A program made the position numbers and the translations under genes. 64,000 nt of DNA from Bacteroidota bacterium (GTDB lineage Bacteria; Bacteroidota; Bacteroidia; NS11-12g; UBA9320): positions 62,001 through 126,000 of the forward strand of contig CANIKO010000006.1 in the NCBI GenBank assembly GCA_947468275.1, read 5' to 3'. The notes beneath the pieces were generated by a model that made no database searches, was not told the DNA's origin, and was given only the letters and a program-made list of their open reading frames with translations. Position 1 is the first letter of the stretch, and each line of letters starts with the position of its first letter. Positions 12,055-52,672 of the stretch are shown here, piece after piece.

Positions 12055-12930
12055 ATGCCAAAGGTTCTACTTCTATTCATAACCTGTTTGATTTTTTGCC
12101 TTCCAACTTCAGCTCAACAATCGTACTTATTTCAAAATGAAATAAAATTTGCAAGCCATTTGATTGATAATTATGAATACAATGATGCCACCTTGGTATT
12201 AAAAAGACTGGCGCAATCCAGAAATCTCAATAAGTCGCAATTGGATTCTGTCAACTATTTCAGAGGTTGGATTTATTACAATCTAAAAAAACTTGATAGT
12301 TCATCCAATTATCTAAAACTAGTTTCGCCCAACTCCAATTATTTTTACAAAAGCAAATTTTACTTTGCTTTTAATACTGCTTACAAAAGCCATTATACAG
12401 AAGCCATAGCTATTATTGACTCTGTAAAAACCGATTCAATAGCAGACTATCACAAGCTTAAAAATTTTGAAATGGCAGCTTTTTCATTGCTTCAGCAAAA
12501 TTATCCTAATTTCGAAAAACATGCGGCTCAATTTACCGGCAGTTATTTTCCAATATCCACTGAGGAAAAATCATTAACAGATTATTATTCCAAGATCCAA
12601 AATCATAATGCCAAATCTCGTTTACTTGCAGGAACCATGTCAGCTATTGTTCCCGGTTCCGGCAAATTCTATACTGGTTTTCGCGGGCAAGGAGCCACAG
12701 CTTTGGTTACCGTGCTATCGCTAGCAGCTATAAGTGCTGAAAGTTATTACCGTGCCGGCCCAAAAAGTATTCAGTTTATTTCTTTCAGCAGTATATTAAG
12801 TATATTTTATGTTGGCAATATTTGGGGCAGCGTTAATAGTGTAAAAAAAAGAAATGATTTATTTTATAAAGAACTTGAGCGGAATGTGTTGCTTGATATG
12901 CACATTCCTCTTAGGCGGGTATTCAATTAG
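12055..12930 (+). CDS. DUF5683-type membrane protein with N-terminal TPR-like region
   Basis: A 291-residue protein with signal peptide MPKVLLLFITCLIFCLPTSA. Residues 25-180 are helical and TPR-like (NYEYNDATLVLKRLAQSRN, RGWIYYNLKKLDSSSNYLKL). Residues 190-285 hold a DUF5683-like segment: AGTMSAIVPGSGKFYTGFRG, then a hydrophobic stretch, much like TM2-type small membrane domains. It is related in layout to the next gene, so the pair looks like an old tandem duplication. Membership of the LolA/YidD cluster suggests a role at the envelope. No enzymatic motif is visible. Confidence 0.7.
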   Translation: MPKVLLLFITCLIFCLPTSAQQSYLFQNEIKFASHLIDNYEYNDATLVLKRLAQSRNLNKSQLDSVNYFRGWIYYNLKKLDSSSNYLKLVSPNSNYFYKSKFYFAFNTAYKSHYTEAIAIIDSVKTDSIADYHKLKNFEMAAFSLLQQNYPNFEKHAAQFTGSYFPISTEEKSLTDYYSKIQNHNAKSRLLAGTMSAIVPGSGKFYTGFRGQGATALVTVLSLAAISAESYYRAGPKSIQFISFSSILSIFYVGNIWGSVNSVKKRNDLFYKELERNVLLDMHIPLRRVFN

Positions 12931-13732
12931 CAATGCCCAATCGGGAGTTTTTAATGAACCCGATAGTTTAATAAATATCAAATTATTCGACGAAGCTTTA
13001 GTAGCTTTTGAAAGGATAAATTATTTTTCGGAAGATGAAGGATTAAAAACTGAGGCACTTATCCAAAAAGCCGAATGCCTAAAACAATTAAAACGATCTA
13101 AAGAGGCTGAAAATTGTTTGAACCGAATAGATCTAAGTGTTTTACCAGACAGTATTTCATACAAAGTAAGGCATCAAACTGCTTTGTGCGCCTATCTTGG
13201 AGGCAACTTTACAGATGCCGAATCTTACTTAACCCAACTATTTTTTTTTCTACCCGACAGTAAATTAACCTATGCATCACTGCCCTTGTTTGCGTTGGTG
13301 CTTAATGAACTTCAAAAATGGAAAGAAGCTGAGCAGAAACTGATTTTTTATTCATCATCCGTAAACAAAAAGGATTCTTTAACAAACCAAATAAAGGCGT
13401 TATACAATCCTAAAAAAATTCCTAAACTTAGAAATATGGAAAAAGCTAAGCTCTTATCGAGCATTATTCCTGGTTCAGGACAAATGTATGCCGGCTATTT
13501 TTGGGAAGGATTAGGAAATGCTTCTTTGCAGGTAGTAAGTTTAGGAATTACCGGAGTGGCTATTTGGCAAAAATATTATATCTCCTCTTTGCTCGTGGGT
13601 TATTCTACTTTTTTTAGGTTTTATCAAGGCGGAGAATTAAGAACAGAATACCTTGTCAATAAAAAAAATTATCAATTAACGAGAAACTACAATGATTCGT
13701 TGAAGCCTTTAATTATTGCGTTAATGGATTAA
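12854..13732 (+). CDS. DUF5683-type membrane protein with N-terminal TPR-like region (second copy)
   Basis: A 292-residue protein overlapping the previous gene by 77 bp. The start at 12854 gives a lysine-containing n-region before the hydrophobic core (MCCLICTFLLGGYSISNA); an ATG at 12884 would still overlap and lacks positive charge, so the first is preferred but not certain. Residues 35-190 are TPR-like (SLINIKLFDEALVAFERINY, AYLGGNFTDAESYLTQL). Residues 195-265 contain LLSSIIPGSGQMYAGYFWEG, the DUF5683 signature, as in its neighbour. Long overlap implies translational coupling. It is the last gene of the cluster; a foldback repeat follows. Confidence 0.7.
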   Translation: MIYFIKNLSGMCCLICTFLLGGYSISNAQSGVFNEPDSLINIKLFDEALVAFERINYFSEDEGLKTEALIQKAECLKQLKRSKEAENCLNRIDLSVLPDSISYKVRHQTALCAYLGGNFTDAESYLTQLFFFLPDSKLTYASLPLFALVLNELQKWKEAEQKLIFYSSSVNKKDSLTNQIKALYNPKKIPKLRNMEKAKLLSSIIPGSGQMYAGYFWEGLGNASLQVVSLGITGVAIWQKYYISSLLVGYSTFFRFYQGGELRTEYLVNKKNYQLTRNYNDSLKPLIIALMD

Positions 13733-13772: not shown

Positions 13773-14091
13773 ATTAGGGGCTGTCAGCCCCTATAACCCT
13801 GACCTTCTTTTTTTCTTGACAAAAAAAGAAGGCAAAAAAGTCAAGCCAAAAATATACTCCCTCCGCACATGCTTGCCCACGCCCGTATTTTTGGCATCCC
13901 AACGCACCTTAAACCTAAATTTTTCATGTAAAACAAAACAATGTCATTTTTCAGCCGTGCGATGGGAGGTCAGAAATGCGGGCCAAGCCCCGGAATGAGC
14001 GTGGAAGCATATTTCTGACTTGATTTTTTTGTTTACTTTTTTTATCAAGAAAAAAAGTGAATAGGAGTTATAGTGGGCAAAGCCCTCTAAT
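13773..14091. repeat. Foldback (long inverted) repeat element, copy 1
   Basis: A 319-bp non-coding element. The left end reads ATTAGGGGCTGTCAGCCCCT and the right end, on the other strand, ATTAGAGGGCTTTGCCCACT. The match between arms continues for about 140 bp (shared blocks such as TTTTTTTCTTGA, CAAAAAA, AATAT, CGCACC/CGCACG), leaving a centre of roughly 40 bp, so a transcript could form one giant hairpin. A second full copy is at 52305-52672 and a one-arm copy at 51589-51751. It lies between two convergent genes. No obvious target-site duplication was seen. Small ORFs inside it differ between copies and are not credible. Confidence 0.8.
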
Positions 14092-14234
14092 CGAAGAATT
14101 TTTTTATTCAAAAAATTCAAGGTTTTTAATAACATTGCTCAAAATCTTGCAAATAAATTTGCCTTAAATTTTAAAGGGAATATCTTTATTATTGGACTTC
14201 ATAGATTTTTGACGCTCGACTAAATAATTAATTA

Positions 14235-14327: not shown

Positions 14328-14774
14328 TTACTCTTTCCACATAATGATTTGGCCATTATCTTCATAGTTCGATTCATCCATGTGAATTAAAAGAAATATA
14401 GCATCCACTATTAACCCAACTCCGCAACCACTAGCTGTACAAAAATAAGCAAAGAAAATTGTCACATCATTTCCATTGGTTCCAAGTATAAATCTATGGA
14501 TAGGTACAAAAGCTCCAATTCCAGTAACTACTTGCACAATGGATACAATAGCGGCGGTTTTCTGCTTCGAATCTTCTTTAGGTTTATTGGAAGTTACCGA
14601 AAGTTCATTGGCCACAAATAATTGGCTAACTTCAGAAGTGATGTCCTGCCCTTGGTCAAACTGAGCGTCAATGGAAATTTCGTCAATTTTATACTGGCTA
14701 GGTTTACCATTTTCGGCTTTACTTACACTAAAGAAAATGGCAACAAAAACAAAGGAGGCTATTATTTTTTTCAT
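14328..14774 (-). CDS. Small exported TM2-like protein (paralog B)
   Basis: A 148-residue protein with signal peptide MKKIIASFVFVAIFFSVSKA. After it comes a Tyr-Lys-Ile-Asp-Glu motif and a polar stretch (to about residue 68), then two hydrophobic segments joined by HRFILGTNGND. The HRF-x-LG pattern is the core of the TM2 domain (usually GxHRFYLG). The C-terminal segment GCGVGLIVDAIFLLIH fits the second TM2 helix with its conserved Asp. It shares its N-terminal motif with the genes at 3789 and 14862, the latter immediately upstream. Function unknown; an envelope location is likely. Confidence 0.7.
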   Translation of the reverse strand: MKKIIASFVFVAIFFSVSKAENGKPSQYKIDEISIDAQFDQGQDITSEVSQLFVANELSVTSNKPKEDSKQKTAAIVSIVQVVTGIGAFVPIHRFILGTNGNDVTIFFAYFCTASGCGVGLIVDAIFLLIHMDESNYEDNGQIIMWKE

Positions 14775-51528: not shown

Positions 51529-51588
51529 TCAATCTTTTTTTTATGTAAACCTTTCTTATTGTTTTTAACAACCATGGCTTTGGGTTCT

Positions 51589-51751
51589 GGAGCGTTGGGT
51601 TGCCAGACCGAGGAACGAGGTTAGCGAATACCCGTAAAAATAAATATTAATGAATGAGACAAAAATACGGGCGTGTGCTTTGTTGTGCGGTAGGAGTATA
51701 TTTCTGGCTTGATTTTTTTTGTTACTTTTTTCATCTAAGGAAAAAAGTGAC
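51589..51751. repeat. Foldback element, partial one-arm copy
   Basis: This stretch resembles one arm of the elements at 13773 and 52305: GGAGCGTTGGGTTGCC is the complement of the block near GGCATCCCAACGCACC, then AAAATACGGGCGTGTG and GGAGTATATTTCTGGCTTGA with TTACTTTTTTCATC. It carries about 50 bp of extra sequence in the middle. It lies between the HdrD-like gene and the convergent gene at 51826; nothing else is seen in that 297-bp gap. Confidence 0.65.
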
Positions 51752-51825
51752 ACAGTATCAAAAGGCAAAATATAGCTACAACAAACTACTTAGCTATCAA
51801 AATTAATTTCACCACGATAGTATTC

Positions 51826-52304: not shown

Positions 52305-52672
52305 ATTAGGGGCTGTCCGCCCCTATAACCCTGACCTTCTTTTTTGCTTGACAAAAAAAGAAGGCAAAAAAGTCAAGCTAAAAATATACTCCAACCGCAC
52401 TATCTAAAACACGCCCGTATTTTTAGCAACCCATCACACCTTAACCCGAAGGATTTGATATCAAACAAAAATTTGTCAGTTTATAGCCGTGTGGTGGGAG
52501 GTCAGAAATGCGGGCCGAGCTCCGGAATGAGCGTGGAAGCATTTTTCTGACTTGATTTTTTTGTTTACTTTTTTCATCAAGGACACCGTAGGTTCATGAA
52601 CACCTTTAAAATAAATAGCAAATCAGTGAATAAAAAAGTAAATAGGAGTTATAGAGGGCAAAGCCCTCTAAT
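52305..52672. repeat. Foldback (long inverted) repeat element, copy 2
   Basis: A 368-bp copy of the element at 13773-14091. Ends are ATTAGGGGCTGTCCGCCCCT and, inverted, ATTAGAGGGCTTTGCCCTCT. Conserved blocks include TATAACCCTGACCTTCTTTT, GGGAGGTCAGAAATGCGGGC and GGAATGAGCGTGGAAGCAT. It carries about 50 bp not in copy 1, starting GGACACCGTAGGTTCATGAA, inserted in the right arm. It lies between the starts of the gene at 51826 and the end of selD. ORFs inside it do not match those in copy 1. Confidence 0.8.

Follow-up and report, generated by a model that had tools for sequence, protein, structure and literature searches.

An intergenic foldback repeat of Bacteroidota is probably part of a MITE-like element that carries nested hairpin inserts

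What kind of unit is a stretch of some 320 nucleotides that lies between two genes of a Bacteroidota bacterium and is almost one complete inverted repeat? An earlier note, made from the sequence alone, had described such a foldback at 13773-14091 of the window (the whole 64,000-nucleotide stretch of DNA analysed here) and had proposed a non-autonomous mobile element, a transcript-ending hairpin or a source of double-stranded RNA. The inverted repeat was borne out. Its arms (13773-13861 against 14003-14091) are 73% complementary across 89 nt without gaps, and with bulges allowed the 319 nt fold as RNA into one rod of 114 pairs (minimum free energy -130.1 kcal/mol). This RNA fold had a z-score of -12.9 against dinucleotide shuffles, none of which equalled it, and folding of the same segment as DNA gave a z-score of -9.9. 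The other copies that the note had placed in the window were also recovered (Table 1). The second full copy (copy B) matches the first (copy A) at 87% across 277 nt and at 95% across the final 41 nt, the two blocks being parted by an insert of about 50 bp. The half copy proved slightly longer than described, at 51579-51752 against the matched 51660-51745, and it too holds a 50-bp insert. Every copy within the window is intergenic, as had been stated.

Table 1 Features of the foldback element and its surroundings in the window
Feature	Position	Strand	Basis or remark
Left neighbour gene, TPR-like (sub-threshold Pfam matches)	12854..13732	+	convergent on copy A
Foldback core, copy A	13773..14091	+	all six insert slots empty; fold, repeats, ~20 genomic copies
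Slot sites of copy A	near 13813, 13840, 13893 (left); 13975, 14023, 14050 (right)		
Right extension of copy A	14092..14220	+	aligned right flanks of copies; TIR pairs
Right TIR of copy A, TTTTTGACGCTCGAC	14206-14220		closes the right extension
TAAATA adjoining the right TIR of copy A	14221..14226	unassigned	candidate right target duplication
Right neighbour gene, no Pfam match	14328..14774	-	convergent on copy A
Partial copy, one arm	51579..51752	-	intergenic
Nested ~51-bp insert, slot-121 type, inside the partial copy	51608..51658	-	
Copy B of the foldback core, one nested insert	52305..52672	+	both flanks common with the G005 ortholog
Nested 49-bp insert, slot 278 of copy B	52583..52631	-	alignment; insert HMM E 5.8e-9

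We found that the foldback core is dispersed well beyond these sites. It matches about 20 places in the source genome (G000) and about 15 in each of two congeners (G004 and G005), which bears out the expectation that it would occur at more than one site. Copy numbers are lower bounds, since the repeat breaks the assembly: the end of contig C4 (L017) and the start of contig C24 (L023) both fall inside one copy and overlap there. Of the other congeners, two had copies that were few or weaker; the core found no match in two more, although a partial copy carrying inserts was present in G002. Weaker relatives of the core, with the same left-end hairpins, were detected in several other genera of the family. 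An exact-pattern scan of the contig collection returned only two loci, both from one MAG, which is G005, and nothing in the phage or plasmid collections matched the element. In G037, from another genus, we observed more than 20 near-identical copies, each of ~46 bp, of arm segment 240-288 (for example in L057 and L064); these sit in a related foldback that has a different centre.

We next consider where the element ends. The earlier note was right about the foldback core but had taken it for the whole element, without its terminal inverted repeats (TIRs), right extension and nested inserts. Alignment of flanks showed that similarity continues past both 13773 and 14091, so that neither is an end; on the right, the extension reaches a TIR (Table 1). 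Better-preserved copies start with a 15-bp TIR, GTCGAACCTCAAAAA, and close with its reverse complement; the TIR (GTYGARCCTCAAAAA) is found at both ends and is perfect in L164. In the papers searched, neither the TIR GTCGAACCTCAAAAA nor the ~50-bp inserts are described. The TIR-bounded units are 180-782 bp long, a spread that arises because the interior is modular. Copy A has kept its right TIR and lost its left one; its G005 ortholog has both, and the right extension is 93.8% identical between the two. With that left TIR gone, the TAAATA beside the right TIR of copy A has no possible left match.

Direct repeats of 6 bp with the pattern TAnnTA adjoin the TIRs, and the two members of the pair are identical in seven copies: L073, L087, L092, L094 (TACTTA), L099, L164 (TAACTA) and the copy that is divided between contigs C4 and C24, flanked by TAAATA. 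Several further copies have a pair mismatched at one base. Since neither TACTTA nor TAACTA is self-complementary, these repeats are true duplications. We also detected orthologous sites that lack the element. The site of the copy at 117 kb of contig C1 (L013) is empty in both G005 and G004; the junction in G005 holds a single TAATTA, whereas the filled site has TAATTA and TATTTA. Neither G000 nor G004 has L071, a G005 copy; the short intergenic remnants there have diverged. Two copies (L018 and L019), each with one flank moved or missing in the relatives, were kept out of this comparison. Both the empty sites and the target duplications that the earlier note had proposed to look for were thus found, one of the empty sites (L013 in G005) being clean.

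No transposase is encoded in the TIR-bounded units, which contain only chance open reading frames of ~90-120 amino acids. A TIR-pattern search of 38 genomes of the family, including G000, G004 and G005, found TIR pairs no more than ~0.8 kb apart and neither an autonomous copy nor a transposase between these TIRs; MAG assemblies may miss IS copies, and an autonomous partner is customary for MITEs rather than strictly required. A transposase was identified neither for the outer element nor for the 50-bp insert. As none was found between such TIRs, we infer the enzyme, and a DDE-type transposase acting in trans may move the outer element. On the basis of the TIRs, the TAnnTA duplications and the empty orthologous sites, we conclude, with a probability of roughly 0.85, that the outer unit is a MITE-like non-autonomous transposable element with a long imperfect palindrome as its interior. 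The dispersed copies point the same way, in support of the first of the earlier proposals.

The core and the TIR-bounded unit do not have the same range. The TIR is confined to three species but core-like palindromes reach other genera, and a route other than the TIR-bounded unit may therefore account for the spread of the core. Copies of the core without TIRs exist, for example on contig C22, where the orthologous sites are without the element and the intergenic DNA is not cleanly alignable. In five loci (L164, L016, L090, L028 and L166), one pair of TIRs encloses arms of the first palindrome together with a second palindrome module (...GTTGGTTTTGTTGGTGCCTTTTTTTGCTCC...) joined to them, which makes the elements mosaics. 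We did not retain homogenisation of the arms as a possibility, as inspection showed that the left arm and the right arm stay distinct in sequence across copies.

The core has six mirrored slots, at about 42, 68 and 121 in the left arm and 203, 251 and 278 in the right arm, and any of them can contain an insert of ~50 bp. Inserts of all slots are related, each mirrored slot pair having its own subfamily, and a profile (HMM) of the insert family gave 72 matches. Many inserts follow a T-run (TTT or TTTG) that recurs at the other end of the insert. Orthologous copies differ in their inserts. The insert of copy B is exactly missing from the G005 ortholog, the remaining core being ~95% identical, and an insert on C3 of G000 has none corresponding to it in G005. 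Three inserts at locus A in G005 are missing from G000, and a copy on C14 has three inserts in G000 and one different insert in G005. On C20 an insert is present in G000, and G005 and G004 have an exact empty site in common; by parsimony, this is the only locus where a direction of gain or loss is suggested. Orthologous copies also differ by whole arms, as in the swapped left end of copy A.

In contig tiles chosen regardless of the element, related inserts occur by themselves between genes as well; examples of such solo inserts lie at C1:54797, C1:241662 and C1:198055 of G000. On contig C7, an unrelated REP palindrome next to a gene for a REP-associated tyrosine transposase (RAYT) has its loop, GAGTTT/GTAACTCG, split by a 52-bp insert, and an identical uninterrupted loop is present nearby. 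A short tandem array of inserts lies at C1:289427-289573 of G000 (in L194); each of its units starts AGCAATTAA directly after the preceding GATTT. The inserts begin with ACTCA, ATTCAC, AGCAAT or GATAAT. Their 5′ end forms a stem with a segment inside the insert (AGCAAT/ATTGCT, GATAAT/ATTATC, GCGAAT/ATTCGC or CATAAG/CTTATG, according to subfamily) and their 3′ end forms a hairpin (AATC/GATT, AACC/GGTT or AATGC/GCATT). Both stems covary, with mean stem lengths above those of all 300 partner swaps. The insert is therefore a short palindrome dispersed between genes, as REP sequences of RAYT systems are. A GTAG or GTGG 5′ tag is absent from the foot of the insert hairpin, and inspection of three IS200-type loci of the genome revealed no significant insert-like match and no ends in common.

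The source genome has two closely related RAYT-type genes, L223 (C7:111054), which matches NF047646, and L224 (C20:9250). Their flanks hold repeated CGAGTT...AACTCG palindromes, and the arrangement is an atypical REPtron with the motif YIHNNP. A third, more divergent RAYT-like gene (L225, C1:80291) falls below the family cut-off and is flanked by a different palindrome family (CCCAGCCAACGTCTCGCC...).

The insert looks like a separate tiny hairpin repeat that favours T-runs in hairpin loops. It would enter such T-runs as a unit of its own, perhaps on single-stranded DNA, and inserts may then spread among copies partly via recombination; recombination between copies is suggested as well, both by the subfamilies peculiar to each mirrored slot pair and by the left end of copy A, which has been swapped. 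In its strongest form, which we put forward tentatively, this reading makes the insert an autonomously recognised, minimal mobile 'hairpin parasite' that enters the loop T-runs of unrelated palindromes (MITE foldbacks and REP hairpins), leaves exact empty sites and would be moved in trans by an HUH enzyme (RAYT or IS200-type) acting on single-stranded hairpins. What links the insert to RAYT is adjacency on C7, and we infer any HUH link. Inserts might instead have no mobility of their own and be ancestral parts of the palindrome that were precisely deleted and shuffled between copies by recombination, a possibility to which we give somewhat less than even odds. A separate subfamily for each mirrored slot pair, and differences of whole arms between orthologs such as that at the left end of copy A, are what such shuffling predicts. 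Ancestral parts are harder to reconcile with related inserts found solo in intergenic DNA, with an insert that interrupts an unrelated REP palindrome at its loop, the empty form of this palindrome being present as well, and with an exact empty site on C20 in two of three species. If the insert is a separate repeat, the exactly filled and empty orthologous slots are a natural assay for the movement of very small hairpin repeats, and the system allows direct tests of what mobilises REP-like repeats in Bacteroidota and of a preference for single-stranded hairpin loops.

The outer element is strongly biased in where it lands. Of 17 TIR-bounded units with readable flanks, 13 lie between convergent genes, four between co-directional genes and none between divergent genes. 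The background in 850 kb of G000 (the window together with 786 kb of contig tiles), taken as intergenic gaps of more than 60 bp, was 52 convergent, 222 co-directional and 92 divergent (about one in seven convergent; Fisher p = 4e-8 for the excess). The duplicated 6-mer overlaps the stop codon of a neighbour in seven units. In L164, the target TAACTA consists of the two abutting stops of a convergent pair, and the stops of both genes survive the duplication. Every insertion creates a TAG at each of its two edges, given a target that ends in TA and an element whose first base is G.

The convergent position fits the transcript-ending hairpin of the earlier note, but copy A yielded no intrinsic terminator in a simple scan. 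It seems unlikely to us that the element is kept by the host as a selected bidirectional terminator between convergent genes, with its mobility incidental. The strong convergent bias and the presence of several hairpins with T-runs behind them speak for such a terminator; against it, the simple scan gave no intrinsic terminator in copy A, relatives with the same convergent genes have empty sites, and a TAnnTA target on stop codons would account for the bias without selection. For a MITE-like element, clustering at gene ends would follow from a TA-rich target and tolerance there, and any bidirectional termination would be a side effect. Long hairpins of this kind in the Bacteroidota studied here can be mobile DNA that comes to rest between convergent genes, in many cases on their stop codons, where its cost is low and where it may act on transcript ends.

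We also asked whether the palindrome is kept as RNA. Across 19 copies of the core, the pairs of copy A were formed in 84.6% of cells, compared with 84.8% after the 3′ letters had been re-dealt. Double changes were at the shuffled level, yet well above slid controls, as expected because pairing is inherited. As compensatory changes did not exceed shuffles, there is no sign of RNA upkeep, and we dropped the reading as a conserved RNA. In their divergence, orthologous cores are close to the neighbouring genes; the exception is the left arm of the C20 copy (L020:1907-2027 in G000), which is 99.1% identical in three species while the flanking genes are ~92% identical; constraint or recent conversion is possible there. 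Within the genus, we saw nothing to indicate that the fold is under selection. That the repeat is a structured non-coding RNA or long double-stranded RNA under selection, with copies spread by duplication, is highly improbable: its very stable fold, the core-like palindromes with the same left-end hairpins in other genera and the C20 arm speak for it, but compensatory changes at the level of shuffles, otherwise neighbour-like divergence, the absence of the element from Rfam (which gave only a tRNA in the window) and the TIRs, target duplications and empty sites speak against it.

Within the phylum, the nearest described elements are BrickBuilt and the related MITEs of Porphyromonas gingivalis, MITE239, MITE464 and MITE700 (PMC4596501). 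Like the outer element, these are short, intergenic and transposase-less, with short TIRs and 10-20 copies, and some hold internal repeats (PMC4596501). The outer element differs in its TIR (GTCGAACCTCAAAAA), in its uniform 6-bp TAnnTA duplication and in its interior, a long palindrome with nested inserts where BrickBuilt has a tandem minisatellite; no parent IS was found for it, whereas the P. gingivalis MITEs match the ends of IS5-family elements (PMC4596501). Every MITE feature that we tested is present except an autonomous partner. The unusual feature is the exact nesting of hairpin inserts in palindrome loops.

For the nested inserts, the nearest analogues are REP/RAYT systems and REP-targeting IS (PMC6006769, PMC3116915, PMC1525189), a placement by analogy. 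REPs, REPINs and BIMEs with their RAYT (TnpA_REP) are likewise intergenic palindromes; the 50-bp insert has hairpins and adjoins a RAYT gene once, and the YIHNNP motif of the RAYTs in the source genome resembles Bacteroidetes subclass 2.6 (PMC6006769, PMC3116915). REPs have no TIRs or target duplications, whereas the outer element has both. Unlike a canonical REP, the insert has no 5′ GTAG-type tag, and its link to RAYT is positional; REPs of subclass 2.6 are reported without that tag (PMC6006769). IS1397 and other REP-targeting IS are similar as mobile sequences that enter defined points of palindromic repeats (PMC1525189). The insert differs from IS1397 in being only ~50 bp long and gene-less and in entering at least three unrelated palindrome types. 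PATEs are tiny, gene-less hairpin units that insert precisely beside a short target motif, and the insert is like them in each of these respects. It differs in that inspection revealed no ends in common with the IS200-type loci of the genome, in its target, TTT, and in its length of only ~50 bp; IS200/IS605-derived PATEs are mentioned in PMC3119063. Both the outer element and the insert seem to be new forms of mobile repeats of kinds already known from bacteria.
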